Assembly: GCF_040782645.1 (NCBI RefSeq)
Contig: NZ_CP160403.1
Span: 5,677,001-5,741,000, forward strand
Length of the DNA: 64,000 nucleotides
Origin: Streptomyces sp. HUAS ZL42
GTDB taxonomy: Bacteria > Actinomycetota > Actinomycetes > Streptomycetales > Streptomycetaceae
Reading direction: 5' to 3'
Each line of letters opens with the position of its first letter. Position 1 is the first letter of the stretch. The notes under the pieces were generated by a model. The model did no database searches and had not been told where the DNA came from. It saw only the letters and a list, made by a program, of their open reading frames with translations. The position numbers were made by a program, and so were the translations under genes. Shown one piece after another: positions 1 to 15,722 of this stretch.

Positions 1-44
1 GCGGAACCACTAAGACCACTTCTTTGCAGCATCCGGAGACAACG

Positions 45-1433
45 GTGCAATTCCACGACTCGATGATCAGCCTCGTCGGCAACACCCCGCTGGTGAGGCT
101 CAACAGCGTGACCAAGGGCATCCGGGCGACCGTCCTGGCCAAGGTGGAGTACTTCAACCCGGGCGGCTCCGTGAAGGACCGCATCGCCCTGCGCATGATC
201 GAGGCGGCAGAGCAGAGCGGCGAACTCAAGCCCGGTGGCACCATCGTCGAGCCGACCAGCGGGAACACCGGTGTCGGGCTCGCGATCGTGGCTCAGCAGA
301 AGGGGTACAAGTGCATCTTCGTGTGCCCCGACAAGGTCAGCACCGACAAGATCAACGTGCTGCGCGCCTACGGCGCCGAGGTGGTCGTATGCCCGACTGC
401 CGTGGACCCCGAGCACCCCGACTCCTACTACAACGTCTCCGACCGGCTCGTCCGCGAGACCCCGGGCGCCTGGAAGCCCGACCAGTACTCCAACCCCAAC
501 AACCCGCTCTCCCACTACCACTCCACCGGCCCCGAGCTGTGGGAGCAGACGGAGGGGAAGATCACTCATTTCGTCGCGGGCGTGGGGACCGGCGGCACCA
601 TCTCCGGGACCGGCCGTTACCTGAAGGACGTCAGCGACGGGCGGGTCCAGGTCGTCGGCGCCGACCCCGAGGGGTCCGTGTACTCCGGCGGGTCCGGGCG
701 GCCGTACCTCGTCGAGGGTGTCGGTGAGGACTTCTGGCCGACCGCGTACGACCGGACCGTGGCCGACGAGATCGTCGCCGTGTCCGACAAGGACTCCTTC
801 CAGATGACCCGCCGGCTGGCCAAGGAGGAGGGCCTGCTGGTGGGCGGCTCCTGCGGGATGGCCGTCGTGGCGGCGCTGCGGGTCGCCGAGCGGCTCGGGC
901 CCGACGACGTCGTGGTCGTCCTCCTTCCGGACAGCGGGCGCGGCTACCTCAGCAAGATCTTCAACGACGAGTGGATGGCCGACTACGGCTTCCTCGAGGA
1001 CGAGGGCCCGAGCGCGCGCGTCGGCGACGTCCTCAACGACAAGGAGCACGGCGCCATGCCGTCCCTCGTCCACATGCACCCGGACGAAACCGTCGGCCAG
1101 GCCATCGAGGTGCTGCGCGAGTACGGCGTCTCGCAGATGCCGGTCGTGAAGCCGGGCGCCGGTCACCCCGACGTCATGGCGGCGGAGGTCGTCGGGTCGG
1201 TCGTGGAGCGGGAGCTGCTGGACGCCCTGTTCAGCAGGACCGCCTCCCTGGACGACCCGCTGGAGAAGCACATGTCGGCCCCGCTGCCGCAGGTCGGCTC
1301 CGGTGAACCGGTCGCGGACCTGATGTCGGTGCTGGGCACCGCGGACGCGGCCATCGTCCTCGTCGAGGGCAAGCCGACCGGTGTGGTCAGCCGGCAGGAC
1401 CTGCTGGCCTTCCTCGCCAAGGGCGCGAAGTGA
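45..1433 (+). CDS. cbs: Cystathionine beta-synthase
   Basis: Pyridoxal-phosphate enzyme that condenses serine (or an activated serine) with homocysteine to give cystathionine, in cytosolic transsulfuration. The 462-residue protein has a fold-II PLP domain (about residues 1-320) with VGNTPLVRL and the PLP lysine K44 in NPGGSVKDR, a glycine-rich phosphate loop (GVGTGGTISGTG), and a C-terminal pair of CBS (Bateman) motifs (about 335-460) that usually bind adenosyl ligands. The N-terminal heme region of animal enzymes is absent, as in other bacteria. I chose the GTG at 45 because GGAG lies six bases upstream. An in-frame TTG at 24 is possible. A single-domain cysteine synthase is unlikely because of the CBS tail. 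Confidence 0.93.
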   Translation: MQFHDSMISLVGNTPLVRLNSVTKGIRATVLAKVEYFNPGGSVKDRIALRMIEAAEQSGELKPGGTIVEPTSGNTGVGLAIVAQQKGYKCIFVCPDKVSTDKINVLRAYGAEVVVCPTAVDPEHPDSYYNVSDRLVRETPGAWKPDQYSNPNNPLSHYHSTGPELWEQTEGKITHFVAGVGTGGTISGTGRYLKDVSDGRVQVVGADPEGSVYSGGSGRPYLVEGVGEDFWPTAYDRTVADEIVAVSDKDSFQMTRRLAKEEGLLVGGSCGMAVVAALRVAERLGPDDVVVVLLPDSGRGYLSKIFNDEWMADYGFLEDEGPSARVGDVLNDKEHGAMPSLVHMHPDETVGQAIEVLREYGVSQMPVVKPGAGHPDVMAAEVVGSVVERELLDALFSRTASLDDPLEKHMSAPLPQVGSGEPVADLMSVLGTADAAIVLVEGKPTGVVSRQDLLAFLAKGAK

Positions 1434-1813
1434 CGGGAAACGTCCGGTGAACGGCCCGTGACGGCGCCGAACTTGCGGTTGCCCACCGCAGTGGTGGACT
1501 TCGCGGAAGTGGTACGAGCGTGTCACGTCCACGCAGCACACGCTTAACACGGGTCCGGCACATTAGTGGGTGTCGGCAGGGCGGGAGCGGCTCCCCGCCC
1601 GGGCCGGCAAACCGAACGGCGTCAAGGACCTCCGGAGCGGCTCCCGGACCTCCATGGACGCCACGGACGCGCAAGCCCGGCCCTGACCCGGCCCGCGTCC
1701 CTCGCGGGGACCGCCGTCGTCCCGCCCCCCGGCAACGGGGGTGCGGCGGTCCCCGCGCATATTCTTTCCGGGGGACGACAGCGGACGCAGGCAGCCCGGT
1801 GGTTGCGGACCTG
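1434..1813. other. Intergenic region between convergent genes
   Basis: About 380 bases between the ends of two convergent genes. I see no convincing coding frame and no strong terminator hairpin. The short open frames here are high-GC artefacts. Confidence 0.5.
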
Positions 1814-2260
1814 TCAGTCCTCCCACTCACCGTCCCGCGACGCCTTGCGGCGGCCGCGGAAGAGGCCCGGGTTGCTGCGGGCGGCCTGGAACGCGTTGAC
1901 GCCGACGATGCCCGCCCAGGCCACGAGCAGGCCGGGGAGGTGGGCGACTCCGCCGCCGATCGCGGACAGGGGGATCGCCAGCACGAGCGAGACGATGCCG
2001 AAGCCGAAGCGCTCGCCCCAGGAGTCGGTGGCCTTCGACGACCGGGAGCCCCGGGCCACGACCATCTGCTGCTCGGCCAGCTGCCGACGTACCCGGCGCT
2101 CTACCGCGCCGTCGATGCGCTGGTCAACCTTCTCCAGGAACGAGTCGACCAGTGCGGACTCGTACTCCTCACCGAGCTCCCTGCGGGCCTGCAGGGTGGC
2201 GTTGAGTTCCTTCTTGAGTTCGGTGTCCCGCGCGTCCATCCCGGTCTCCATTCCCGTCAT
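1814..2260 (-). CDS. Small membrane protein with coiled-coil N-terminus
   Basis: 148-residue protein. The first ~75 residues are charged and helical (KKELNATLQARRELGEEYES), followed by two hydrophobic segments (about 90-125) separated by a Gly-rich turn, and a basic tail ending in GEWED. It looks like a cytoplasmic helical domain tethered to the membrane. I cannot assign a function. Three in-frame ATG codons lie within the first eight residues, and the third (MDARDTEL) is a plausible alternative start. It is convergent with cystathionine beta-synthase. Confidence 0.75.
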   Translation of the reverse strand: MTGMETGMDARDTELKKELNATLQARRELGEEYESALVDSFLEKVDQRIDGAVERRVRRQLAEQQMVVARGSRSSKATDSWGERFGFGIVSLVLAIPLSAIGGGVAHLPGLLVAWAGIVGVNAFQAARSNPGLFRGRRKASRDGEWED

Positions 2261-2556
2261 GGAGTCCCACGTTAGGGAGGCGGGCCTGCCTCCGCACTGG
2301 GGTTAGCCCCCCTGTTCGTCGCCGTCCTGGAGGGGCCGCGGAGCCTCCGGGCCGGCAGGCTCACGTCAGTCCTGCGTCAAGGTCGACGCGAAAGGCGTCA
2401 GTAACGCATCAAGGGAGGACCGGTTCGCGGCCCGCTTCCCCAGCCTCGTCCTCATGCGACGGCGCACCCCACGAAAACGGGCGAAGCCGGTCCCCACGCC
2501 GGTACGGGGCGGCCAGGGAGCCGCACGGACAACTGCACACCGCCGCCGTCAGGTCC

Positions 2557-2935
2557 GTGCCGGAGCCGGTGCCAACCCCCTTCGTCTGGGCGGCCGCCTT
2601 CGTCGGCTGCTTCCTGCTGGTGGCGGTACTCGGTGCGGTCGGCGGTCTGTCCGGTTCGTCCGTCGTGCTGGGCGCGCAGTGCGGGCCGGCGGTGCTGCTC
2701 GGCCTGACCGCCCGCTTTCGTGCGGCTCCCGGTGTCGCCCTGGTGTGCCGGCTGTTCCTCAACGGCTACGCCGTGGCGCCACGCGGGGAGCCCGCCTGGC
2801 AGGGCCATCCGGATGTCGCCCGGATCGTGCTGCTGTTCGCTGCCGCGTCTCTCGGCACGGTCATCGCGCGAATCGCCGACGCGGTCGGGGCTCAACCGCA
2901 TCGCGCCTGGCCGGAGGCCAGGGTCGGACAGCTGA
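2557..2935 (+). pseudogene. Small integral membrane protein gene with a probable single-base frameshift
   Basis: From GTG 2557 the frame reads as an integral membrane protein with four hydrophobic stretches (FVWAAAFVGCFLLVAVLG, then VLGAQCGPAVLLGL, then the motif LFLNGYAVAPRGE, then VLLFAAASLGTVIARIADAV). After that the frame loses sense and runs on into the next gene out of register. Removing one G from the GGGG run at 2887-2890 continues as GLNRIAPGRRPGSDS and stops at 2935. That gives a protein of about 125 residues, the length I recall for this streptomycete family. It is either a recent pseudogene or a sequencing error. Function unknown. Confidence 0.5.
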
Positions 2936-3175
2936 GGCCATCCACTCGGGGCGGTGGACCTTGCCCGACTGTGGCGAGCTGCGCCTTCCTCGCGGACGAG
3001 GGCGCGGGCCATCTCGGGGGTGCGTTGCCGGGTTCCGGCAACATCGGTGGCTCCGTGGTGCCCGTAAGCGATCTGTCTGAGACGCATCAAGGGCAGGTAA
3101 GGTTCCCCCTGGTGTGCCGGGAAGCCTGGTCGGCGAGCAAGGGACAAGTCTCTCTTCCGATCGGGGGTGGCCGCC

Positions 3176-4411
3176 ATGGTGCTCGTGGTGGTGTTCGGTG
3201 CCGCACTGTTGGTGGCGGTGCTGCTTTCGGGCCTGGCGGCGCGGACGGTTCTCTCCACGTCCTTCCTCTTCCTGGTCGGCGGGGCACTGGTCAGCGACGG
3301 GTTCCTCGGGCTGATCCACATCACGCCGGACAGCGAGATCGTGTCCGTCACAGCCGACCTGGCGCTGTTCGCGGTGCTGTTCACCGACGGCATGCACGTG
3401 TCCCTGCCCAAGCTGCGCGCCAACTGGAAGAACCCGGCTCGCGCCCTTGGCCTGGGCATGCCGCTCGCGTTCGTCTTCATGGCCCTGGTCACCCATTACC
3501 TGGTGGGCCTGGACTGGACGACGTCCTTCCTGGTCGGAGCGGTCCTCGCGCCGACCGACCCGGTGTTCGCGTCGGCGATCGTCGGGCGCGCCGAAGTCCC
3601 TGCCAAGCTGCGGCAACTGCTGAACGTGGAGAGCGGCATCAACGACGGGCTCGCCCTGCCTGTGGTCCTGATGCTGATCGCGGCCGCCGGACCGACCGCA
3701 CACAGCGCGGAGGCATCGCCGGGCAGGATCGCGCTCGAGCTGCTGCTCGGCCTGGTCTTCGGCGTCGTACTGCCCCTGCTGGTCAACGGTCTCGTACGCT
3801 TCCGGCTGCTGGGCGCGGAGCCGAAACTGCAGCCGCTGCTGCCGCTGGCCACCGGGATCATCCTGTACGCGACCTGCCACCTCACCCATGCCAACCCCTA
3901 CCTCGCCGCCTTCTCGGCGGGCGCGGCCCTGGCACACGTCTCACCGGAGGCGAAGACGTCCTTCGAACCGCTCGGCGAGGCGTTGGCGGAGCTGGCGAAG
4001 TTCGCGGCGCTTCTGGTGTTCGGGGCGCTACTGACCCCGCAGCTGTTCGGTGATCTGTCCTTCGGCGGCTACCTGGCGGTGGTTCTCGCCATCGTCCTCA
4101 TCCGCCCCGCCTCGTTGCTGCTCTCGTTGCTCGGCACGACGATCTCCCGCAAGGAGAAGCTGGTGGCGGCCTGGTTCGGCCCGAAGGGCTTCGCCTCGGT
4201 GGTCTACGGCCTGCTCGTGCTGCAGTCCGGCATCCCGCAGGCCGAGGGGGCGTTCACCCTCATCGCGGTCTGCATCGCCTTGTCGATCATCGCGCACAGC
4301 TCCACCGACGTACCGATCGCTCGCATGTTCCGTGTCGAGGACCTCGCCGGTGTGCCCGGAGCCGACGAAACGCCCCGAACCACCGAGGAGGCCGACCGTG
4401 TCGGCGCGTGA
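3176..4411 (+). CDS. CPA1-family Na+(K+)/H+ antiporter
   Basis: 411-residue polytopic membrane protein with about 12 hydrophobic segments, of the NhaP/CPA1 cation:proton antiporter type. Family motifs include LAPTDPVFASAIVGR (about residues 122-136) and NVESGINDGLALP, which carries the conserved Asn-Asp ion-binding pair. Likely role: Na+ or K+ extrusion, with a part in pH and salt tolerance. ATG 3176 is preceded by GGGGG with eight bases of spacing; a GTG at 3167 overlaps that site and is less likely. The gene ends inside the next reading frame (14-base overlap with 4398-4715), suggesting an operon with the following transporter. Confidence 0.9.
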   Translation: MVLVVVFGAALLVAVLLSGLAARTVLSTSFLFLVGGALVSDGFLGLIHITPDSEIVSVTADLALFAVLFTDGMHVSLPKLRANWKNPARALGLGMPLAFVFMALVTHYLVGLDWTTSFLVGAVLAPTDPVFASAIVGRAEVPAKLRQLLNVESGINDGLALPVVLMLIAAAGPTAHSAEASPGRIALELLLGLVFGVVLPLLVNGLVRFRLLGAEPKLQPLLPLATGIILYATCHLTHANPYLAAFSAGAALAHVSPEAKTSFEPLGEALAELAKFAALLVFGALLTPQLFGDLSFGGYLAVVLAIVLIRPASLLLSLLGTTISRKEKLVAAWFGPKGFASVVYGLLVLQSGIPQAEGAFTLIAVCIALSIIAHSSTDVPIARMFRVEDLAGVPGADETPRTTEEADRVGA

Positions 4412-4715
4412 GGTCGTCGACCACGACGGACAGTCCTGCTCCGCGGTGTCCACACCGCGGAGCAGGGGACGGCTCCTGCCCACGTCCGCACCGGCGGACC
4501 TCGTTTTCGCCGCCGGATTCGGCGGCCAGGGCCTCGAACACCGCGTCCGGCCGCCGACGGTCGGGCCGGTCGCGAGCGTCACGCACATCGCGGCCCTCAT
4601 GGCCCGCACCCACGCTCCGTTGGTGGCCGTCGTCGAACGCGACGGCCACCGGACCCTGCTCACGGGTGCCGTCACGGCCGCCCGTCTGATGGAACGACTT
4701 CTCGGAGGACCGTGA
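4398..4715 (+). pseudogene. N-terminally truncated CBS-domain protein (second CBS motif only)
   Basis: 105 codons from GTG 4398. The second half (HIAALMARTHAPLVAVVER, then LLTGAVTAARLMERLL) closely resembles the second CBS motif of the intact CBS-pair protein at 14974-15465. The first ~40 residues resemble nothing in that protein and the first CBS motif is missing. The gene overlaps the antiporter upstream and shares GTGA (4712-4715) with the SLC13-type transporter downstream, so it may survive as a translational coupler. It may be a decayed regulator of the next transporter, since CBS proteins often sit beside transporters. A functional half-Bateman protein that dimerises cannot be excluded. 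Confidence 0.55.
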
Positions 4716-6010
4716 ACGACTGGCAGAGCTGGGCGGCGGTCGTCGTCTTCGTCGGCGCGTACGCCCTGATCATCAGCGAGAAGATCCACCGCGTGGCCGT
4801 CGCGCTCGGTGGCGCGGGTCTGATGCTGGCGATCGGCGCGACCGACGACAAGTCGGCGTTCTACTCCGAGCACAGCGGCGTCGACTGGAACGTCATCTTC
4901 CTGCTCATGGGCATGATGATGATCGTCGGCGTGCTGAAGAAGACCGGCATGTTCGAGTACCTGGCGATCTGGTCGGTGAAGCGGGCCAGGGCGAAGCCGT
5001 TCCGGGTGATGGCCATGCTGGTCGTGATCACGGCGGTGGCCTCGGCCCTGCTGGACAACGTCACCACGGTGCTGCTCATCGCGCCGGTCACGCTGCTGGT
5101 CTGCGAGCGGCTCGCCCTGCCCGTCGCCCCGTTCCTGATCGCCGAGGTCATGGCGTCGAACATCGGTGGCACGGCGACCCTGGTCGGTGACCCGCCGAAC
5201 ATCATCATCGCCAGCCGGGCCGGGCTGACCTTCAACGCCTTCCTGGTCCACCTGGCACCGATCGTGCTGGTCCTGGTGATCGCCCTGCTCGCGCTGTGCC
5301 GGGTGATGTTCCGCAAGTCCTTCGTGTACGACGATGACCGGGCCGCCGAGATCATGGCGCTGGAGGAACGCGAGGCGATCAAGGACCCGCGGCTGCTCGT
5401 CCAGGGCCTGGTCGTCCTGGCGCTGGTGGTCGCGGGCTTCGTCCTCCACCCGGTGCTGCACTACGAGCCCAGCGTCGTCGCCCTGCTCGGCGCCGGGCTG
5501 CTCATCGCCGTCTCCACGGCCGAGACCCGCGAGGTCCTGCAAGAGGTGGAGTGGCCCACTCTGGCCTTCTTCGCCGGCCTCTTCATCATGATCGGCGGCC
5601 TGATCGAGACCGGTGTGATCGGCGAGATCTCCAAGGGCCTGGCCGACGCGATCGGCGACAACGAGCTCGGCGGCTCCATGACCCTGCTGAGCGCCTCCGC
5701 GGTCCTGTCCGGCATCGTCGACAACATCCCCTACGTCGCCACGATGGCCCCCATCACCAGCGACCTCGTCCACAACATGGGCGGCGACAGCGACCACGTC
5801 ATGTGGTGGGCCCTCGCCCTCGGCGCCGACCTGGGCGGCAACGCCACCGCCATCGGCGCCAGCGCCAACGTCGTCGTGCTCGGCATCGCCGAACGCAACC
5901 GCCAGCCCATCTCCTTCTGGCAGTTCACCAAGTACGGCATGGTCGTCACGGGCGTCACCGTGGCCCTCGCGCTCGGCTACGTGTGGCTGCGCTACTTCGC
6001 GCTCGGCTGA
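4712..6010 (+). CDS. SLC13/ArsB-NhaD-type ion transporter
   Basis: 432-residue permease with about 11-12 membrane segments. Two pseudo-symmetric halves each contain the family's conserved turn: SALLDNVTTVLLIAPV with NIGGTATLVGDPPN in the N-terminal half, and SGIVDNIPYVATMAPI with LGADLGGNATAIGASANV in the C-terminal half. These motifs typify the ion-transporter superfamily that includes ArsB, NhaD and P-protein permeases. Substrate (arsenite, Na+/H+ or an organic anion) cannot be told from sequence. There is no ArsR, ArsC or ArsA nearby, so a cation or anion homeostasis role beside the CPA1 antiporter seems more likely than arsenic resistance. GTG 4712 is translationally coupled to the preceding gene. 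Confidence 0.85.
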   Translation: MNDWQSWAAVVVFVGAYALIISEKIHRVAVALGGAGLMLAIGATDDKSAFYSEHSGVDWNVIFLLMGMMMIVGVLKKTGMFEYLAIWSVKRARAKPFRVMAMLVVITAVASALLDNVTTVLLIAPVTLLVCERLALPVAPFLIAEVMASNIGGTATLVGDPPNIIIASRAGLTFNAFLVHLAPIVLVLVIALLALCRVMFRKSFVYDDDRAAEIMALEEREAIKDPRLLVQGLVVLALVVAGFVLHPVLHYEPSVVALLGAGLLIAVSTAETREVLQEVEWPTLAFFAGLFIMIGGLIETGVIGEISKGLADAIGDNELGGSMTLLSASAVLSGIVDNIPYVATMAPITSDLVHNMGGDSDHVMWWALALGADLGGNATAIGASANVVVLGIAERNRQPISFWQFTKYGMVVTGVTVALALGYVWLRYFALG

Positions 6011-6053
6011 CGCACCCGGGCGGGCCGGACCTCGCCCAGCGGGCTGCCGGCCG

Positions 6054-7115
6054 TCACACCTCGTCCTCGGGCCACCCGAGGAGCCTGGCCCCGATCACCG
6101 CCGTCTGCAGGGTGTAGCGGTTGACGGGATCGCCCGGGTCGGCGCCGGTGAGCTTGTGAATGCGGTCCAGACGGTAGGTGAAGGCCCGCACGCTCAGGTT
6201 CAGGCGCCGGGCCGCCTCGGCGGCGACGCAGCCGGAGTCGAAGTACGCCGTGAGCGTCTCGACGAGGGGGCGGGCGCCGCCGCGTGCGCTCTGCAGCGGG
6301 CCGAGGGTGTTGCTGACGAGGTCGGCCATGGCCTGCCGGTCACGGGTCAGGACCGGGTAGACGAGAAGGTCGGCCGAGCGCAGCACCGGTTCGTGGATCT
6401 GCAGCCGAGCCGCCAGGTCGAGGGCGTTGAGGGCCTCTTCGTAGGAGTGGACGACTCCGCCCGCACCCGGGTGCGGGCGCCCGATGGCGACTTGGCCGCC
6501 CTCGGTGGCGGCGTACGCCTGCTTGGCGAAGAACGCCAGCACGTCGTCCTGATCCCCTGGCGCGATGCAGATCAGCCGGCCGTCCTTGGTGGTGAGCAGA
6601 ATGCGCCGCTCGCCGAACCGGCCCACCACGGCACTCTCCACCTGCCGCGTGGCCGGATCGGTCTCCTCGACCGGCCTGCCACCCTGAGCGACGGCGACGG
6701 CGTGGGCACGCGAGAGCAGCAGCCCGAAACGTTCGGCCCGTTCGGACAGGCGGCCCAGATCGCTGCGGCCGTAGAGCAGGTCGTCGATGAATTCCCGGCG
6801 CACCGCCTCCTCCTGCCGTACGGCGAGTTGCTGTGCTCGCTCGTGGCCTTCGGCGAAGGCGTCGATCGCCTGCTCGACGGCGGCGAGCGCGCGATCACCC
6901 GCGGCGGCGGAGAGGACCGGCCAGATGCCCCGGGCCGTGGCCAGGTGCCGGCGAACGACGGCCCGCAGCCCGAAGCCGGCCTCGGCGGCGCGTTCCCCCC
7001 GCGTCCGCAGGAACTCCAACTCGTCCCGGGTGAGGCGGCGACCCGTCGCACACACCTCGGTCAGTATCTGGGCATACCCCTCCAGATACTCGTCGGGAAC
7101 CTCCCGCCCTGTCAC
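6054..7115 (-). CDS. PucR/CdaR-type transcriptional regulator
   Basis: 353-residue regulator. The C-terminal ~70 residues (TLTAYFDSGCVAAEAARRLNLSVRAFTYRLDRI..., about 285-345) form the PucR-type helix-turn-helix. The central region resembles the GGDEF-like sensory region of this class, and the N-terminal ~150 residues are helical (RsbRD_N/PucR-N-like). I chose GTG 7115 because GGGAGGACGC sits directly upstream; a longer start at 7172 adds a basic stretch without a clear ribosome site. The gene is convergent with the SLC13-type transporter and divergent from the flotillin operon, so it is a good candidate regulator of that operon. A near-perfect 16-bp palindrome lies in its upstream region (7238-7253). 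Confidence 0.85.
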   Translation of the reverse strand: MTGREVPDEYLEGYAQILTEVCATGRRLTRDELEFLRTRGERAAEAGFGLRAVVRRHLATARGIWPVLSAAAGDRALAAVEQAIDAFAEGHERAQQLAVRQEEAVRREFIDDLLYGRSDLGRLSERAERFGLLLSRAHAVAVAQGGRPVEETDPATRQVESAVVGRFGERRILLTTKDGRLICIAPGDQDDVLAFFAKQAYAATEGGQVAIGRPHPGAGGVVHSYEEALNALDLAARLQIHEPVLRSADLLVYPVLTRDRQAMADLVSNTLGPLQSARGGARPLVETLTAYFDSGCVAAEAARRLNLSVRAFTYRLDRIHKLTGADPGDPVNRYTLQTAVIGARLLGWPEDEV

Positions 7116-7237
7116 GCGTCCTCCCGTGTCCTTGGCGTTCTGCCGGCGCGTTTTGCGTTGCAGGCTGAACAAGACTGGCAGATCCGGGGCAGGCCACGGG
7201 GGCCGGGAGCGAGCCGTCGCGACCGGAACTGATCATG

Positions 7238-7253
7238 CCGAACCATGGTCCGG
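7238..7253. promoter_or_regulatory. Palindromic candidate operator between PucR-type gene and flotillin operon
   Basis: CCGAACCATGGTCCGG is symmetrical apart from one mismatched pair. It sits about 120 bases upstream of the regulator's GTG and 140 bases upstream of the NfeD-like gene. This is a plausible binding site for the divergently transcribed regulator, by inference only. Confidence 0.3.
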
Positions 7254-7395
7254 TACCCGCAGCGATGTGTCGCCGCCCGGCATCAAGCAGGCGTCAAGAC
7301 TGCCGGGGCACGGCAATGCGTCCGAGAGCATGACCGGTTCAAGATGGCGGGGGAAGAGACAGGGCATTCGAGAACTCGGTTCGGGGGGCGAGGAC

Positions 7396-7830
7396 ATGGG
7401 ACAGGTCGTCGGCGCCGCCGCGCGGTTCCCCACCGTCACCTTCACTTCGGCCCTGGTGGTCGTGCTCGGTTTCTGGCTGCTGGTCCTGCTGGGCCGCGCC
7501 GGTGTGCGCGACTTCGACGTCGACGCCCCCTCGTTGGTCGGCTCTCTCGGCGGGATGCCGGTCGCCGTCGCGGGATCCGTGGTGGTCACGAGCGCCTGGC
7601 TCGTCAGCCTCACGGGAACGGTGCTGATGGACCTGGCACGCTTGTCAGGTCCCGGTGATGCCGCGGCCAGGGTCGCGCTGCTCTCCCTGTCCGCACTGAC
7701 AGCCTGGCCGGTGACACGAAGGTGCGCTGCCCCTCTCGTCCGGCTGTTCCCGAGCCGGCCCGGGCCGCACCGGCAGGCCGCGCCGGGCAGCGCGCCGTAC
7801 GACCCCGGCAGTCCCGGCGCCGGCGGCTGA
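7396..7830 (+). CDS. NfeD/YqiJ-like membrane protein lacking the OB-fold domain
   Basis: 144-residue protein with an N-terminal membrane segment (FTSALVVVLGFWLLVLLG) and two more hydrophobic segments (about 55-80 and 90-115), then a Pro/Ser/Gly tail. The streptomycete proteins I know in this position, immediately upstream of a YqiK-type flotillin, are about 200 residues long and end in a soluble OB-fold domain. That domain is missing here, and only 121 bases separate the stop from the flotillin start, too few to hold it. ATG 7396 follows a GGGGGGCGAGGA site. It is probably co-transcribed with the flotillin and may still act as a membrane partner. Confidence 0.65.
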   Translation: MGQVVGAAARFPTVTFTSALVVVLGFWLLVLLGRAGVRDFDVDAPSLVGSLGGMPVAVAGSVVVTSAWLVSLTGTVLMDLARLSGPGDAAARVALLSLSALTAWPVTRRCAAPLVRLFPSRPGPHRQAAPGSAPYDPGSPGAGG

Positions 7831-7951
7831 GCCGCCCACAGGTCCCACCGCGCCGCCCGAGCTCTCACGCGCATCTCGCCCGCCCGCAGCCGAGCGGGCC
7901 GTCTCGCCTCCCGTCGAGGCGTCAACTCCTCGCAGACTTCAAGGACTTCGT

Positions 7952-9997
7952 ATGGACGCCATCACCGTGGGCTTCGGCGTGCTCATCGCCGCCTGCCTGC
8001 TCGTCGCGACAGCCGCACTGTTCGTCCTCTCCCGCCTGTTCCGCAAGGTGGAGCAGGGCAAGGCGCTGATCGTCTCCAAACTGCGGAGGGTCGACGTGAC
8101 CTTCACCGGGCAGGTGGTGCTGCCGGTGCTGCACAAGGCCGAGGTGATGGACATCTCGGTGAAGACGATCGAGATCACCCGGGCCGGCAAGGACGGGCTG
8201 ATCTGCCGGGACAACATCCGGGCCGACATCCGGATCTCGTTCTTCGTGAAGGTCAACAAGACCGTCGCGGACGTCATCAAGGTCGCCCAGGCGGTCGGCA
8301 CGGCACGGGCCAGCGACCAGAGGACGCTGCAGGAACTCTTCCACGCGAAGTTCTCCGAGGCGCTGAAGACCGTCGGCAAGCAGATGGACTTCACCGACCT
8401 CTACACCAAGCGCGAGGAACTGCGGTACCAGATCATCGAGTTGATCGGCGTCGACCTCAACGGCTACCACCTGGAGGACGCGGCGATCGACTACCTGGAG
8501 CAGACGCCGCTGACGCAGCTGGACCCGGCGAACGTCCTCGACGCGCAGGGCATCAGGAAGATCACAGAGCTGACGGCGGTGGAGCACGTGCGCACCAACG
8601 AGGCCCAGCGCACCGAGGAGAAGGAGATCACCCGGCAGAACGTCGACGCCCGCGAGGCCATCCTGGAGCTGGAGCGCCGCCAGGCGGACGCCGAGATCAA
8701 GCAGCGCCGGGAGATCGAGACCGTACGGGCGCGCGAGGAGGCGGAGACGGCGCGGGTGGTGGAGGAGGAGCGGCTGCGCGCGCAGTCCGCGTTCCTCAAG
8801 ACCGAGGAGCAGCTCGGGGTGCAGCGGGAGAACCAGGCCCGCGAGGTCGCCGTCGCGCAGAAGAACCGCGAGCGGGTCATCGCGATCGAGAACGAGCGCA
8901 TCGAGAAGGACCGCCTCCTCGAGGTCATCGCGCGGGAGCGGGAGACCCAGCTGACGCAGATCGCCGCTTCGAAGGAGGTCGAGGCTGAGAAGCGGGAGAT
9001 CGCCGAGGTCATCCGGGAGCGGATCGCCGTGGACCGGACGGTCGCCGAGCAGGAGGAGGCCATCAAGAAGCTGCGCGCTGTCGAGGAGGCCGAGCGGCAG
9101 CGGCAGGCCGTGATCATCGCCGCCGAGGCGGAGGCCCAGGAGAAGCTGGTCAAGGACATCAAGGCCGCGGAGGCCGCCGAGCAGGCCGCCACCCACCACG
9201 CCGCAGAGGAACTCACCCTGGCCGAGGCACGGTTGAAGACGGCCGACCTCGACGCGCAGGCCAAGCTGCGGCTGGCGCAGGGTGTCCAGGCCGAGGCCGC
9301 TGCCGAGGGGCTCGCGGCCGTGCAGGTCCGGGACAAGGAGGCCGAGGTCGTCGAGAAGGCCGGCCGTGCCGAAGCCGAGGCCACCGAGGCCCGACTCCGC
9401 GCCGAGGCGGAGGGCGCCCGCGCCAAGGCGCTGGCCGAGGCCACGGCCATCTCCGAGAAGCTCAAGGCAGAGGCGGAGGGGCTCAGCCAGAAGGCCGTGG
9501 CGATGGCCGCGCTCGACGAGGCATCCCGCGGCCACGAGGAGTACCGGCTGCGGCTGCAGGCCGAGAAGGACATCCGGCTGGCCGGACTCGACATGCAGAA
9601 GCACGTCGCCGAGGCACAGGCCACGGTCCTCGCCACCGGTCTGGAGAACGCCGACATCAACATCGTCGGCGGGGAGTCGGTCTTCTTCGACCGCCTGGTC
9701 TCCTCGATCGCGCTCGGCAAGGGCGTCGACGGGTTCGTCCAGCACTCCGAGACCGCGCAGGCACTCGCCCGGCCCTGGCTGGACGGCACCTCCAGCTTCA
9801 CCGACGACCTGAGCCGCGCCCTCGGCTCGGTCTCCACGGCCGACGTGCAGAACCTGACCGTCTCCGCGCTGCTGATGAAGCTGATGAACACCGGTGCCGC
9901 CGACGCCGGGCAGCTGAGGCAACTGCTGGACAAGGCGGGCGAGCTGGGCCTGGCCGACACCTCACTGGCCGCGCTCAACGGCAGCGCGCAGGCCTGA
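7952..9997 (+). CDS. Flotillin-family (SPFH/band 7) protein, YqiK-type
   Basis: 681-residue membrane scaffold. One N-terminal membrane segment (about residues 5-28) is followed by an SPFH/band-7 domain (about 30-200). A very long Glu/Ala/Arg-rich coiled coil follows (about 210-560) with AEAEA-type heptads, and the C-terminus is a less charged oligomerisation region. Flotillins build detergent-resistant membrane microdomains and large oligomeric cages. ATG 7952 follows TTCAAGGACTTCGT, with AAGGA as the ribosome site. The gene lies between an NfeD-like gene and a giant AAA ATPase read in the same direction, an arrangement suggesting a membrane-tethered ATPase complex. Confidence 0.9.
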   Translation: MDAITVGFGVLIAACLLVATAALFVLSRLFRKVEQGKALIVSKLRRVDVTFTGQVVLPVLHKAEVMDISVKTIEITRAGKDGLICRDNIRADIRISFFVKVNKTVADVIKVAQAVGTARASDQRTLQELFHAKFSEALKTVGKQMDFTDLYTKREELRYQIIELIGVDLNGYHLEDAAIDYLEQTPLTQLDPANVLDAQGIRKITELTAVEHVRTNEAQRTEEKEITRQNVDAREAILELERRQADAEIKQRREIETVRAREEAETARVVEEERLRAQSAFLKTEEQLGVQRENQAREVAVAQKNRERVIAIENERIEKDRLLEVIARERETQLTQIAASKEVEAEKREIAEVIRERIAVDRTVAEQEEAIKKLRAVEEAERQRQAVIIAAEAEAQEKLVKDIKAAEAAEQAATHHAAEELTLAEARLKTADLDAQAKLRLAQGVQAEAAAEGLAAVQVRDKEAEVVEKAGRAEAEATEARLRAEAEGARAKALAEATAISEKLKAEAEGLSQKAVAMAALDEASRGHEEYRLRLQAEKDIRLAGLDMQKHVAEAQATVLATGLENADINIVGGESVFFDRLVSSIALGKGVDGFVQHSETAQALARPWLDGTSSFTDDLSRALGSVSTADVQNLTVSALLMKLMNTGAADAGQLRQLLDKAGELGLADTSLAALNGSAQA

Positions 9998-10003
9998 CAG
10001 ACC

Positions 10004-10048
10004 CGCGGTCCGCAGCCGCCGCACAGGGGACGGCGGCTGCGGACCGCG
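10004..10048 (+). terminator. Perfect 18-bp hairpin with T-run between flotillin and AAA ATPase genes
   Basis: The arms 10004-10021 and 10031-10048 are exactly complementary (CGCGGTCCGCAGCCGCCG on the left) around a nine-base loop, and are followed by CTCTTTTCCCC. This looks like an intrinsic terminator, or an attenuator that lowers ATPase expression relative to the flotillin. Confidence 0.8.
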
Positions 10049-10079
10049 CTCTTTTCCCCCGACTTCCTGAGAGGGACCC

Positions 10080-13000
10080 ATGACCACCGGCCTGGACACC
10101 GGCACGTACGAGGTGCTGCGCGACCGCCTCACCGCGCAGGCCGCCGAACTCGCCCGCCGAGCCGAGACGCTCAACGCCCGCCGAACCGAGGAGTTCGGCT
10201 CCACACGGCTCGAACTCGCCGGCACCGAGCGGCTGCGCACCGAGCACAGCTGCGTACCCCGGGACATCGTCTCGGTCGGCGGCATCCTGCTCTTCGGCCA
10301 CAACGTCTTCCTCGGCCTCAAACCCGGGACGACCGTCGGCGACGTCTTCGCGTTGCACGACCGCGACCTGAACCGGCTGCCCGACGACGCCGTGCCCGGC
10401 CTGCTGGACGACGCCGCCTTCGTCCGTGAGTTCGCCGCCCTCTACCGCTACTACCGGCAGGCCCACCTCCTCCAGCTCCGCCGCGTCGACGGCAAGTTGC
10501 TGGCCGTCTTCCAGACCGGCGAGAAGGCCGGAGACATCCGCGTCCTGCGCTGGGCCGTGACCGACGACGGCCAGGTGTCCTTCCTGGACGCGCGCGGCGA
10601 CCGCGACCACGTCTTCCCGCCCTCCCACGACTTCGAGTGGACGCCGACGTCCCGCGAGGACCATGTCCTCGGCCGCCACCCGCACGTCTCCATCGAGGGC
10701 GAGGTCTTCGTGGAGACCGTCGGCGGCACCCTCACCGTCAAGGTCGAGAACAACACCGAGACCGGACAGGGCGTCTACGCCGAGCCCGTCGACGCGCCGC
10801 TGCAGTCCCTCGCCGACGCGCACATCGCGTACGCGCGCGTCGGCGCCCTGATCCTGCTCCGCGTCCGCCCCTACCAGGAGGACGCCGACCGCCACCTGGT
10901 GTTCAACACGCTCACCAAGTCGGTGGTCCGCCTGGACGGCATCGGTCAGGCGTGCCGCCGGCTGCCCGAGGACCAGGGCATCGTCTTCCCCGGCGGTTAC
11001 TGCCTGGCCACCGGCACGCACAAGACGTTCGACGGTGTCGACACCAACAGCCTCGAGTTCCAGCGTGTGGTCCGCTCGCCCAACGGCGAGGACGTGCTGT
11101 TCGCTTTCCACGCACGCGTGGAGGGACGCAGCCTGCTCCTGCCGTACAACATGATCCGCAAAGAGGTCGCCACCCCGCTGTCCTGCCACGGCTGGGCCCT
11201 GTTCGACGACGGCGCGCTCGTCGTCCTGCGCGCCGACAGCGACGAGCCGCAGCGCGTGCACCCCGTCCAGCTGTGGCACTCCCCGTACGTCTCCGACACC
11301 CACGCCGCCGCCCAGCCCCTCGGCACCGGCCCGCTGGCCCGCGTCGGCAACGCGGACCTCGTGCGCGGCATCTCCGACTGCCTGTCCATCACGCGGGCCG
11401 TCACCGAGACCACTCCGACAAGTGAGGTGTACGAGGCGCTGGCCGCCGCGTGCGTCCGGGCGGCGGACTCCTACCACTGGCTGGGCGAGCCCGAACTCGG
11501 CGATCTGTACGCGCCGCTCACGCAGGTCCGCGCCACCGCCGAGCAGGTCCTGGCCGAGTTCGAGACCGTCCATGCCCTCAACCGGCAGGCCGCCGAGGCG
11601 CTGGCGGAGGCGGCGGCGCGGGTCGCCGCAGTCGTACGGCGCCTGCGGGGCGAAGCCCCGCGCAGCGCCGCCGCCTGGGTCACCGGACTGACCGAACTCC
11701 GGCAAGCCCAGGGCCACCTCCTCACCCTCAAGGACATGCGGTACGCCGACACCGTCCGCATCGATGAACTCGCCGCCGCCGCCGAGGCCGACCTCGCCTC
11801 CTTCGGGCAGCGGGCCGTCGCCCACCTCGCCCGGGAGGACGCCTTCGCCGGCCACCAGGCCGACATCGAGCGGCTGGTGGCCGACGCCGAGGCGATCACC
11901 ACCGTCGCCGAGGCCGCACCCGTCGTCGCCCGCCTCGACGAACTCGCCCACGGACTGCGCACGGTCACCGACGTCGTCACCGGTCTCGACATCGGCGACG
12001 CCACCGTCCGTACGTCCGTCCTGGAGCGGATCGCGGGGGTCCTCGGCGGCGTCAACCGGGCTCGCGCCACACTCGACGGCCGCCGCCGCGCGCTCCTGGA
12101 CCGTGAGGGACGGGCGGAGTTCGCCGCCGAGTTCGCGCTGCTGGGCCAGGCCGTCATCGGCGCGCTGGCCGTCGCGGACAGCCCCGAGGCGTGCGACGAG
12201 CAGCTCGCCCGCATGCTCGTGCAGGTGGAGGGCTTGGAGTCCCGGTTCGCGGAGTTCGACGACTTCCTCGGCGAGCTGGCGGACAAGCGTGACGAGGTCC
12301 ACGAGGCGTTCTCCGCCCGGAAGCAGACCCTCGCCGACGCCCGCGCCCGCCGGGCCGAACGCCTCACCGAGTCGGCGTCCCGGGTCCTGCGGACCGTCGC
12401 CCGCCGCCAAGGCACGCTCGCCGACGCGGACGCCGTCACCACGTACTTCACCTCCGACCCCCTCGTGGCCAAGGTCCGCCGCATCGCAGGGGAACTGCGC
12501 GAACTCGGTGACCAGGTCAGGGCGGAGGAACTCGACGGCCGCCTCAAGGCAGCCCGCCAGGAGGCCCTCCGGTCCCTGCGCGACCGCACCGACCTGTACA
12601 CCGACGACGGCCGCACCCTCCGCCTCGGCACCCACCGCTTCGCCGTCAACACCCAGCCCCTCGACCTCACCCTCGTCCCGCACGGCGACGGCCTCGCCTT
12701 CGCCGTCACCGGCACCGACCACCGCTCCCCGGTGACCGACCCCGGCTTCGCCGCGACCCGCCCGTACTGGGACCGGGCCCTGCCGTCGGAGTCCCCGCAG
12801 GTCTACCGTGCGGAACACCTCGCCGCCCGGCTGCTGGACGAGCACGGCCCGGCGGCACTCACGGACGCCGACCTGCCCGCCCTCGCACGGCAGGCCGCGG
12901 AAGCCGCCTACGACGAGGGATACGAGCGCGGTGTCCACGACCACGACGCCGCCCTGATCCTCACCACGCTCCTGCGGCTGTACGAGGACGCGGGACCACT

Positions 13001-14942
13001 GCGCCACGAGCCGGCGGCCCGCGCCACCGCCCAACTGTTCTGGGCCCACGGCACGACCGCCGAGGCCCGGCAGGACTGGCAGCGGCGCGCGGTCTCGCTG
13101 GCCCGCGCCCGGGACACCTTCGGCCTGGCGCCCGCGATCGAGAAGCTGCGGCAGGAACTGGCGGAGGCGATCGGCACGGAAGCGGCGGCCGCCTACCTCT
13201 TCGAGGAGCTGACGAGCGGCCCCGACGGCTTCGTCATCAGCGCGAGTGCCCGCACCCTGCTCGACAAGTTCCACCACACGGTCGGCACCTCGGCCTACGA
13301 CGAGGACCTCGCCGTACTCGGCGACCTGGACGCGCGCAAGCAGCTCGTCGAGGCGTGGCTCTCCTCGTACACCACCTCCACCGGCATGGAGGTCACCCCC
13401 GGCGACCTGGCCGAGGCAGTGGCCGCCGAACTCTGCCCCGACCTGGCCCGCCACGTCTCCGACGCGCCGTTGACCGAGACGGTCGGAGGACTGCTCGGCG
13501 CCCACCCCCGTATCACCGACCGGTCCCTGCCCCTCCGCATCGACGAGTTCCTGGCCCGCACCCACGCGTTCCGCACGCACGACGTACCCGGCCACCGCGC
13601 CTTCCAGCGTCGCCGTACAGAGCTTGTGGCCGCCGAACAGGCGCGGCTCCACCTGGACGAGTACCGGCCGCGGGTGATGTCCGCGTTCGTCCGCAGCAGA
13701 CTCATCGACGAGGTCTACCTCCCACTGATCGGCGACAGCCTCGCCAAGCAGCTCGGCACCACCGGCGAGTCCAAGCGCACCGACACCGGCGGCCTCCTGC
13801 TGCTCATCTCCCCGCCCGGCTACGGCAAGACGACCCTCATGGAGTACGTCGCCGACCGCCTCGGCCTCATCCTCGTCAAGGTCAACGGCCCGGCCCTCGG
13901 CCACACCGTCACCTCGCTCGACCCGGCCGAGGCCCCGAACGCGACGGCCCGCCAGGAGATCGAGAAGATCAACTTCGCGCTGGAGGCGGGCAACAACACC
14001 CTCCTGTACCTGGACGACATCCAGCACACCTCGCCCGAACTGCTGCAGAAGTTCATCCCGCTGTGCGACGCCACCCGCCGCATCGAGGGCGTCCGGAACG
14101 GCGAGCCCCGCACCCACGACCTGCGCGGCAAGCGCTTCGCCGTGTGCATGGCCGGCAACCCCTACACCGAGTCCGGCGCCCGCTTCCGCATCCCCGACAT
14201 GCTCGCCAACCGCGCCGACGTCTGGAACCTCGGCGACGTCCTCACCGGCAAGCAGGACGCCTTCGCGCTCAGCTTCATGGAGAACGCCCTCACCGCGAAC
14301 CCGGTCCTCGCCCCGCTCGCCGGCCGCGACCGCGCCGACCTCGACCTCCTCGTCCGGCTCGCCCAGGGCGACACCACGGCCCGCGCCGACCGGCTCACCC
14401 ACCCCTACGCCCCTGCCGAACTGGAGGGCATCCTGGCCGTACTGCGCCACCTGCTCACGGCCCGCGACACGGTCCTCGCCGTGAACAGCGCCTACATCGC
14501 CTCGGCGGCCCAGTCCGACACCACACGCACAGAGCCGCCCTTCCAGCTCCAGGGCTCCTACCGCAACATGAACAAGATCGCCCAGCGTATCCAGCCGGTC
14601 ATGAACGACGCCGAACTGTCCGCCGTGATCGACGACCACTACACGGCCGAGGCTCAGACGCTGACCACGGGCGCGGAGGCCAATCTGCTGAAGCTGGCCG
14701 AACTGCGCGGCACGCTCACACCCGAGCAGGCCGCCCGCTGGGCGGACATCAAGAACGCCTACGTCCGCACCCAGACGCTCGGCGGCCCGGAGGACGATCA
14801 GCTCACTCGCGCGATCGCCGCCCTCGGCCTGCTCGCGGACCGCATCGCCGCCGTCGAATCCGCCATCAACCGCGCCGCCGACCCACGCCGCCTCATGGCC
14901 AACCCGACGGCCCGGCACGCGGTCCGGCCGCACGACGAGTGA
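10080..14942 (+). CDS. Giant AAA+ ATPase of the 'DNA repair ATPase' type
   Basis: 1620 residues. An N-terminal beta-rich region (about 60-440) holds segments that look like propeller blades. A long helical, coiled-coil region follows (about 450-900), then a second mixed region, then an AAA+ core. Walker A is SPPGYGKTT (about 1243-1251), Walker B is LLYLDDIQ (about 1308), and MAGNPYTESGARFR looks like sensor 1; the layout resembles MoxR/McrB-like AAA proteins. Homologues are often labelled 'DNA repair ATPase' (I recall DUF3686), with little experimental support. The gene is 82 bases from the flotillin gene, with a strong hairpin in between, and is convergent with a CBS-domain gene. ATG 10080 follows GAGAGGGACCC. 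The role is unknown; energy-dependent remodelling at a flotillin scaffold is inference. Confidence 0.85.
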   Translation: MTTGLDTGTYEVLRDRLTAQAAELARRAETLNARRTEEFGSTRLELAGTERLRTEHSCVPRDIVSVGGILLFGHNVFLGLKPGTTVGDVFALHDRDLNRLPDDAVPGLLDDAAFVREFAALYRYYRQAHLLQLRRVDGKLLAVFQTGEKAGDIRVLRWAVTDDGQVSFLDARGDRDHVFPPSHDFEWTPTSREDHVLGRHPHVSIEGEVFVETVGGTLTVKVENNTETGQGVYAEPVDAPLQSLADAHIAYARVGALILLRVRPYQEDADRHLVFNTLTKSVVRLDGIGQACRRLPEDQGIVFPGGYCLATGTHKTFDGVDTNSLEFQRVVRSPNGEDVLFAFHARVEGRSLLLPYNMIRKEVATPLSCHGWALFDDGALVVLRADSDEPQRVHPVQLWHSPYVSDTHAAAQPLGTGPLARVGNADLVRGISDCLSITRAVTETTPTSEVYEALAAACVRAADSYHWLGEPELGDLYAPLTQVRATAEQVLAEFETVHALNRQAAEALAEAAARVAAVVRRLRGEAPRSAAAWVTGLTELRQAQGHLLTLKDMRYADTVRIDELAAAAEADLASFGQRAVAHLAREDAFAGHQADIERLVADAEAITTVAEAAPVVARLDELAHGLRTVTDVVTGLDIGDATVRTSVLERIAGVLGGVNRARATLDGRRRALLDREGRAEFAAEFALLGQAVIGALAVADSPEACDEQLARMLVQVEGLESRFAEFDDFLGELADKRDEVHEAFSARKQTLADARARRAERLTESASRVLRTVARRQGTLADADAVTTYFTSDPLVAKVRRIAGELRELGDQVRAEELDGRLKAARQEALRSLRDRTDLYTDDGRTLRLGTHRFAVNTQPLDLTLVPHGDGLAFAVTGTDHRSPVTDPGFAATRPYWDRALPSESPQVYRAEHLAARLLDEHGPAALTDADLPALARQAAEAAYDEGYERGVHDHDAALILTTLLRLYEDAGPLRHEPAARATAQLFWAHGTTAEARQDWQRRAVSLARARDTFGLAPAIEKLRQELAEAIGTEAAAAYLFEELTSGPDGFVISASARTLLDKFHHTVGTSAYDEDLAVLGDLDARKQLVEAWLSSYTTSTGMEVTPGDLAEAVAAELCPDLARHVSDAPLTETVGGLLGAHPRITDRSLPLRIDEFLARTHAFRTHDVPGHRAFQRRRTELVAAEQARLHLDEYRPRVMSAFVRSRLIDEVYLPLIGDSLAKQLGTTGESKRTDTGGLLLLISPPGYGKTTLMEYVADRLGLILVKVNGPALGHTVTSLDPAEAPNATARQEIEKINFALEAGNNTLLYLDDIQHTSPELLQKFIPLCDATRRIEGVRNGEPRTHDLRGKRFAVCMAGNPYTESGARFRIPDMLANRADVWNLGDVLTGKQDAFALSFMENALTANPVLAPLAGRDRADLDLLVRLAQGDTTARADRLTHPYAPAELEGILAVLRHLLTARDTVLAVNSAYIASAAQSDTTRTEPPFQLQGSYRNMNKIAQRIQPVMNDAELSAVIDDHYTAEAQTLTTGAEANLLKLAELRGTLTPEQAARWADIKNAYVRTQTLGGPEDDQLTRAIAALGLLADRIAAVESAINRAADPRRLMANPTARHAVRPHDE

Positions 14943-14973
14943 CAACGCCCCTGGCGGGTTGCGGTCCCTGCCC

Positions 14974-15465
14974 TCAGGGGGTGTTCGGTGCGCCCGCTGC
15001 CCCGAGGAGCTCGTGCAGAAGATGGGACGCGGTGATCACGCCCAGCAGGTGGGTGCCCTCTTCCGTATGCCTGCCCTTCGCCCGTTCGGCCACGGCCACC
15101 AGCGGGCTGCGCACTCGCGCCATCAGCGCGGCCACCTCCAGGGCGGTGTCGTCCGGATCGGCGATCGGGGGCGCGGCCGCCTCGCGGGGCAGACACTCCC
15201 CGACGCGTCGGCCCGCCAGGGCCTGGCAGAGCCGGTCGGCGTGCTTCTCGTCGACGACGGCGGCGAGCGTCGGGTCCTCGATCACGTAGGCCGGCACCAG
15301 CGCCTTGACCATCTGGGAGGCCGGGAGAATCGCCTTCGGCTCACCCCACTCGTCCACCACGAGCAGGCCCGGCAGCCTGTGCTCGGCCATCAGCCGGGCC
15401 GCCTCCACGGCGTCGCTGTCGACGCTCACCGTTTCGTACTCGACGGCCAGGTCACGGGCGCGCAT
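14974..15465 (-). CDS. CBS-domain (Bateman) protein
   Basis: 163-residue cytosolic protein made of two CBS motifs: the first about residues 1-60 (AARLMAEHRLPGLLVVDEWG), the second about 100-155 (ALEVAALMARVRSPLVAVAER, then LLGVITASHLLHELLG). Such stand-alone pairs bind adenine nucleotides and often regulate transporters or enzymes. A decayed relative lies at 4398-4715, so related CBS genes stand at both ends of this block. The gene is convergent with the AAA ATPase (31-base gap). ATG 15465 is used; GAGGAGCCCGCC lies just upstream and supplies the ribosome site. Confidence 0.88.
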   Translation of the reverse strand: MRARDLAVEYETVSVDSDAVEAARLMAEHRLPGLLVVDEWGEPKAILPASQMVKALVPAYVIEDPTLAAVVDEKHADRLCQALAGRRVGECLPREAAAPPIADPDDTALEVAALMARVRSPLVAVAERAKGRHTEEGTHLLGVITASHLLHELLGAAGAPNTP

Positions 15466-15722
15466 GGCGGGCTCCTCGTCTGCTGGAAAGGTTTCCTGTA
15501 CTCACCGTCTTACGTCATCGGCGAGCGGGCCAGGTCATTGACGTGAAACATACGCGGCGACGCCGGAGGAACCATCGCGTGGGGGAGCACAGCCCACTGC
15601 CTCTCCGGAGCGAGGTAAGGCGTCCACGGCCCGACGCCGCGCACGCGTCGGCGTCTGACCTGCCTGTCGCGACGAGGTCGATCCGGCTCCCTGCCCGTGG
15701 GGCCCTCCCCGGGACACGACCG

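Follow-up and report, generated by a model that had tools for sequence, protein, structure and literature searches.

A conserved flotillin-ATPase gene pair with a decayed NfeD-like partner and an intercistronic hairpin in Streptomyces

We analyzed a 64-kb window (5677001-5741000, contig NZ_CP160403.1) of the 9.87-Mb chromosome of Streptomyces sp. HUAS ZL42, which contains a compact operon with a flotillin gene followed by the gene of a giant AAA+ ATPase. The two are a real, conserved gene pair and the core of a published operon type, of which the window shows a version whose NfeD partner has decayed and whose conserved hairpin is absent from Rfam. The two proteins almost certainly share a function, and the pairing together with the hairpin suggests one membrane-stress machine. 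The parts of the operon, in window coordinates, are as follows.

6054-7172, minus strand: PucR/CdaR-type regulator (GGDEF_2 and HTH_30 in Pfam), divergent from the operon and a candidate regulator of it
7396-7830, plus strand: YqiJ/NfeD-like small membrane protein, a 144-aa stub whose C-terminal (OB-like) part is missing
7952-9997, plus strand: flotillin (SPFH/Band_7), 681 aa, Band_7 E 1.6e-9, with a hydrophobic N-terminal segment
10004-10048, plus strand: intercistronic RNA hairpin, 18-bp stem (10004-10021 with 10031-10048) and 9-nt loop (10022-10030) with GGGG
10080-14942, plus strand: giant DUF3686-DUF7902-AAA+ ATPase (Pfam), 1620 aa, labeled 'DNA repair ATPase'
10212-11285, plus strand: predicted beta-propeller of the ATPase, residues 45-402
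11295-12596, plus strand: helical region of the ATPase, residues 406-839, with 641-698 and 727-777 as single predicted helices
13638-14714, plus strand: MoxR-like AAA+ module of the ATPase, residues 1187-1545

The initial annotation of this DNA had named the flotillin, the ATPase with its clear Walker motifs, the NfeD-like gene and the divergent PucR-type regulator, all of which we recovered. Its description of the genes as being read together holds for their common strand and tight order, with the caveat that the 18-bp hairpin splits flotillin from ATPase.

Conservation of the gene pair

Twenty of 61 related genomes contained DUF3686, the N-terminal Pfam domain of the ATPase, as did 20 of 37 genomes of the same genus and none of 14 control genomes. 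The flotillin was present in the same 20 related genomes, and the other 41 had neither; by coordinates, the flotillin gene lay directly upstream of the ATPase gene on the same strand each time. One extra flotillin piece of 37 residues lies at a contig edge in genome G001, where placement is impossible. An even sample of 296 Actinomycetota genomes contained DUF3686 in eight and strong flotillin matches (best E <1e-160) in the same eight; the four other flotillin matches came from genomes lacking DUF3686 and were weak, none better than E 3e-6. All ten gene pairs in these eight genomes were adjacent (eight checked on loci, two by coordinates), including one whose ATPase is only 38% identical.

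A scan of named genomes yielded at least 549 confirmed relatives, the best 80 of which comprise 54 Streptomyces, 25 other actinobacteria and one deltaproteobacterial metagenome-assembled genome (MAG); because the best-scoring ones were retained, these loci lean towards close relatives. Species may overlap between the sets of 61 genomes, 296 genomes and 80 loci. The flotillin was directly upstream in 78 of the 80, and in the other two the contig starts at or inside the ATPase gene. Twelve plasmid records from Actinomycetota, Deinococcota, Pseudomonadota and Bacteroidota also carry a relative, and each of the 11 that were fetched has the flotillin upstream. Adjacency, which the initial annotation had left to be counted across genomes, is therefore neither rare nor random: it holds in 20 of 20 related genomes, 10 of 10 Actinomycetota pairs and 89 of 91 genome and plasmid loci.

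Protein distances of flotillin and ATPase rise in parallel (r 0.942 for n=87, against at most 0.392 in 1000 permutations; three short flotillins and the loci without flotillin left out), also within Streptomyces (r 0.792, n=51). Since linked genes are expected to behave in this way, the parallel argues for joint inheritance only. The genome of the window has one match each for flotillin and ATPase. When the proteins of 84 actinobacterial and neighboring loci were clustered, the ATPase was found in 83, the flotillin in 79, the YqiJ-like protein in 39 and the PucR-like regulator in 32; every remaining cluster was confined to 13 loci or fewer.

Several loci depart from the simple arrangement. Two genomes of the same genus, G185 and G239, have two flotillin-ATPase pairs each, and not all copies look intact: one ATPase open frame in G185 is 622 aa long, and one flotillin in G239 is in pieces with a TAG. 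An apparent gene fusion of flotillin and ATPase in locus L046 (one long frame, 7817-14821) was rejected after a three-frame reading, which revealed a frameshift inside the flotillin; this could be an assembly error or a broken gene. A search of E. coli genomes with 870 bases of the Proteus ATPase gene found no match.

Domain architecture of the encoded proteins

Pfam assigns DUF3686 to residues 23-466 of the ATPase (E 2.9e-210), DUF7902 to 587-670 and AAA to 1235-1331. No variation was seen across 12 proteins of four phyla at Walker A (SPPGYGKT, 1244-1251), the Walker B residues D1312/D1313, or N1360, R1378 and R1495; the last three are presumably sensor 1, the Arg finger and sensor 2. A sequence search of the PDB with the ATPase gave weak AAA matches only. 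When the predicted structure of the AAA+ module was ranked by Z, MoxR ATPases came first (15-17.3, with CbbQ2 and NorQ best), and among the ranked rows proteasomal ATPases and NVL scored 12.5 and below. The motor thus likely folds like MoxR AAA+ proteins, behind what is likely a beta-propeller and helical arms. Prediction supports this fold, with a hexameric ring as the presumed assembly. Pfam found no protease domain in the ATPase, in which no clear membrane segment was seen either; its one weak window (681-699) falls within a predicted long helix.

The flotillin has one strongly hydrophobic segment at its N-terminus (residues 1-31) and had no match in the PDB sequence search; in NCBIfam, no library of flotillin or NfeD proteins matched. 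The 144-aa stub lacks a Pfam or NCBIfam match. It is 16-42% identical to ten longer YqiJ-like proteins that occupy its position in other operons, with which its hydrophobic part aligns; the three membrane segments expected of the YqiJ/YuaF type are not separable one by one. In other genera, the YqiJ-like relatives combine this hydrophobic part with a C-terminal part that we take for an OB-like domain, a name that comes from the YqiJ/YuaF literature (PMC2636767). Only the hydrophobic part is kept in the window and in several other Streptomyces (ten loci with fewer than 160 residues from match start to stop).

A YqiJ-like match lies upstream in 67 of the 89 loci with flotillin (E 1e-5), as in operons of the SPFH2 (YqiK-type) class. 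Among the 22 loci without a match at this threshold, which a diverged stub could escape, at least four are contigs cut upstream (L027, L048, L060, L078); in L036, L053 and L055 the distance between the regulator match and the flotillin match is under 350 bp, which leaves no room for a YqiJ-like gene. The NfeD/YqiJ protein is the loosest member of the operon, decaying in Streptomyces, and because its gene comes and goes as the pair persists, we regard flotillin and ATPase as the core. Matches to the PucR-type regulator occur in 39 of 91 loci when the whole fetched stretch is counted; in 29 of 91 the match is on the minus strand, no more than 1.4 kb upstream of the flotillin frame.

The intercistronic hairpin

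The gap between flotillin and ATPase genes in the window contains a perfect stem with a folding z of -5.45. We aligned 29 related hairpins of equal length with stems of 11 or more (alignment A4; 43 had such stems). Twelve of the 18 pairs show changes on both sides, and the covariation score is 0.329, compared with 0.119 for shuffles and 0.05-0.08 for slid versions; the percentage paired in A4 is biased upwards because the hairpins were picked by their stem. The structure alignments left out eight loci with stops or N, pieces covering <85% and rows >88% identical to a kept one. Rfam contains no family that scores over its gathering threshold on the hairpin. Its one sub-threshold match in 5900-15600, AS-traI at 10397-10473 (plus strand) inside the ATPase gene, reaches 27.9 bits against a gathering score of 99 and is probably due to chance.

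A model built from the 29 hairpins (R1) has a single match at E<=0.001 in the genome of the window, at the flotillin-ATPase junction. The genome search used stricter filters, by which weak matches are lost. It gave junction matches of 36-71 bits in 14 of 20 operon genomes, some of which may overlap A4; four rows were the opposite strand of junction hairpins, and twelve rows of 36-48 bits lay off the junction, in operon genomes and in six without the operon. Similar hairpins thus occur elsewhere too, yet it is the junction that gives the strong matches. In the set of 80 genome loci (E up to 0.1), R1 matched the junction in 35, all of them Streptomyces (35 of 54, as opposed to 0 of 26 others); nine of the 35, the weakest being L072 (E 0.035), lie outside A4 and, with the junction matches of the genome search, form the independent part. 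Among the 11 plasmid loci only the two Streptomyces ones match, and both are in A4. A second, weaker R1 match (29.7 bits) was seen after the ATPase gene at L041:14903-14945.

The plus strand matches far better than the minus strand (69 versus 37 bits in the window), and GGGG is present in the loop of 34 of 36 hairpins, which together point to an RNA element. Flotillin-ATPase gaps of 30-330 nt beat all 40 of their shuffles in 37 of 74 cases, compared with 1 of 47 for YqiJ-flotillin gaps (L046 and gaps holding N were left out). In Proteus, Photobacterium, Halomonas and Vibrio the junction carries unrelated hairpins that none of 40 shuffles equals; the junction stems are weaker in plasmid pQBR103 (equaled by 2 of 40 shuffles) and in Hymenobacter (1 of 40). 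No junction stem beyond chance was found in two Deinococcus loci and the deltaproteobacterial MAG. In several loci, which we take to be from the families Pseudonocardiaceae and Streptosporangiaceae, the gap is about zero and has no room for a hairpin. In an Actinomadura locus, the flotillin and ATPase genes are separated by a perfect 25-bp stem that is unrelated in sequence (L086:9914-9963).

The hairpin tails are seldom T-rich (at least 5 T in 10 nt in 4 of 36; the tail in the window reads CTCTTTTC), so that the G+C stem followed by a T-rich run of an intrinsic terminator is not seen, which makes an ordinary terminator of this kind improbable in Streptomyces. A role in RNA processing or stability, or in attenuation, is likelier. 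A sigma-70 promoter scan gave no promoter-like site, and a terminator scan gave two terminator-like sites against 2.1 expected.

Relation to known systems

The pairing of flotillin and ATPase is itself not new. Ravi et al. 2024 (PMC11237479) described this operon type, including an abbreviated form, and proposed ESCRT-like or chaperone-like roles and membrane-linked complex assembly. As in the abbreviated form, the window has a YqiJ-like membrane protein, a membrane-anchored band-7/flotillin protein (Band_7 and hydrophobic residues 1-31) and an AAA+ module fused to a coiled coil and a likely beta-propeller. The likeness is drawn from the published description. Unlike the full form, the operon in the window has no PspA or CesT/Tir gene, which are absent from the abbreviated form too. 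It also differs from the published operons in the NfeD/YqiJ stub, the conserved hairpin at the flotillin-ATPase junction and the divergent PucR-type regulator. What we add is the MoxR-like fold, the decay of the NfeD/YqiJ gene, the junction hairpin and the proximity of NhaA; the novelty of the hairpin rests on comparison with Rfam, and its absence from print is not claimed. In the open-licence literature we found no paper on DUF3686 and none joining 'DNA repair ATPase' to flotillin, or MoxR and AAA+ to flotillin.

Several characterized systems resemble parts of this operon. HflK/C cages hold hexameric AAA+ proteases (PMC11260169), likewise an SPFH scaffold with a dedicated hexameric engine. 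FtsH is a protease, unlike the ATPase in the window, and flotillin here replaces HflK/C. The MoxR ATPases CbbQ2 and NorQ remodel their targets (PMC13036017). In contrast to NorQ-NorD, CbbQ-CbbO and RavA-ViaA, the ATPase in the window is of much greater size and has long helices and a likely propeller, its partner is a flotillin, and no VWA gene was found among the ten neighbor proteins scanned (10 of 18 listed non-operon clusters; no genome-wide VWA search was made). Finally, the SPFH2/NfeD2 operons YqiK-YqiJ and YuaG-YuaF (Hinderhofer et al. 2009, PMC2636767) also place a flotillin gene and a small NfeD-like gene in a single operon; the available part of that paper does not mention a giant ATPase for them.

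Proposed function and alternatives

We propose that the operon encodes a membrane-tethered AAA+ remodeling machine that acts in envelope or ion stress and whose scaffold is kept in excess of the motor by the hairpin, and assign this a probability of about 0.5. Flotillin subunits, anchored by their N-terminal membrane segment, might build a cage or clamp on the cytoplasmic face of the membrane, as inferred from their family: human flotillins form cages of 22 pairs (PMC11260169), and the flotillin of S. aureus acts as a clamp that holds unfolded proteins without ATP (PMC11222466). The giant ATPase would form a MoxR-like AAA+ ring whose beta-propeller and helical arms could dock on the flotillin scaffold or its clients, and ATP would drive the remodeling of membrane-associated proteins under envelope or ion stress. 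The NfeD/YqiJ protein may be an accessory that is being lost in Streptomyces. The hairpin after the flotillin gene could keep the flotillin transcript above that of the ATPase, which would suit tens of scaffold subunits per ring of about six.

This proposal builds on the PspA and CesT/Tir-type chaperone genes in broader operons, the S. aureus clamp, the HflK/C cages and the MoxR fold, and it fits the constant pairing in the samples examined, the domain architecture, the conserved ATPase motifs and the covarying hairpin. An ATP-driven remodeling complex on a flotillin scaffold had already been suggested in the initial annotation; with near-constant adjacency it is the most economical reading, although Ravi et al. 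2024 (PMC11237479) had proposed nearly the same and the contact between the proteins is one we infer. A bolder version, tentative but conceivable, pictures a flotillin cage with its own non-proteolytic MoxR-type engine, in which flotillin takes the place of the VWA adaptor and the new hairpin sets the ratio, as a counterpart of HflK/C-FtsH for remodeling in ion or envelope stress.

The ion link comes from the neighborhood. In 6 of 20 genomes a gene for the Na+/H+ antiporter NhaA is no more than 20 kb away from the operon, where uniform placement would give 0.18, and in 4 of 20 the distance is at most 10 kb (0.09 expected); related species and a crude null model weaken these statistics. The genome of the window has no NhaA near the operon, a Na/H exchanger and an ArsB/CitMHS-type transporter flanking it instead. 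Both points weigh against our proposal.

Alternatively, the flotillin could be the substrate, with the ATPase dismantling or reshaping flotillin cages as Vps4 does with ESCRT-III polymers. The one-to-one pairing would suit this, with only YqiJ-like and PucR-like clusters exceeding 13 of the 84 loci, and an ESCRT analogy has been drawn for PspA partners (Ravi et al., PMC11237479). The closest folds by Z are however MoxR proteins, with proteasomal ATPases and NVL lower, and we consider this alternative doubtful. It is also possible, though in our judgment unlikely, that flotillin and ATPase are co-regulated but separate proteins that answer the same stress and never touch. YqiK-type flotillins do exist without the ATPase, as in E. 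coli YqiK/YqiJ (PMC2636767) and with DUF3686 absent from all 14 control genomes. Yet no full flotillin of this type was found without the ATPase in the Actinomycetota samples, the unplaceable edge piece in G001 aside, and it is the YqiJ-like gene that varies and the pair that stays.

A membrane-anchored DNA-repair or nucleic-acid motor, as in the database label, is very improbable: Pfam describes an 'ATPase involved in DNA repair' and RuvB heads the Foldseek list for the AAA+ module by E-value, but MoxR proteins lead by Z, the scanned neighbors contain no repair domain, and no finding backs the label, which we argue should not serve as a name until it has been put to a test. The anti-phage role raised in the initial annotation is similarly remote, since the patchy presence within the genus and the 12 plasmid records, as often seen for defense genes, are set against PADLOC results limited to weak AAA cross-matches (IetA models, E ~0.005, 30 residues of the AAA core), the lack of any relative among 50,697 phage records and of a confirmed one in viral contigs, and scanned neighbors that are transporters, CBS and Usp proteins and enzymes (no search for defense islands was made).

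The role of bacterial flotillins is still an open question in the field. In every testable locus examined here, one flotillin lineage goes together with a single large AAA+ motor whose catalytic residues are conserved, so that the flotillin scaffold as the dock of an ATP-driven remodeler becomes a testable question. The hairpin offers a handle on how cells balance a scaffold of many subunits against a ring motor.

Genomic neighborhood

Three further genes flank the operon in the window, identified by the domain scan of neighbor proteins.

3167-4411, plus strand: Na/H exchanger
4712-6010, plus strand: CitMHS/ArsB-type transporter
14974-15465, minus strand: CBS-domain protein

A TrkA_N, NhaA, Na/H-exchanger or ArsB-like gene was present in the fetched flank of 25 of 84 loci, a count without a control. 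The largest non-operon cluster (13 loci) is a TrkA_N protein of the K+-transport type, whose gene lies 4.1-5.2 kb after the ATPase match start, just behind the ATPase gene, in 10 of its 13 loci. Loci with TrkA_N directly 3' of the ATPase are L027, L052, L056, L057, L060, L066, L067, L073, L085 and L097, several of which are perhaps one clade.

Fuller operons are found beside the same ATPase family in L013 (pQBR103) and L016 (Hymenobacter), with PspA and YjfI or a CesT/Tir-type chaperone. The locus on pQBR103, a Pseudomonas plasmid, is a ten-gene block (1-13184) of YjfI, PspA, rhomboid, DUF2491, DUF350, DUF1190, glutathionylspermidine synthase, YqiJ-like, SPFH and ATPase genes. The genome of the window has two PspA/IM30 genes of its own (G000:C1:7158634-7159320 and 9536854-9537534), about 1.5 and 3.85 Mb from the operon.

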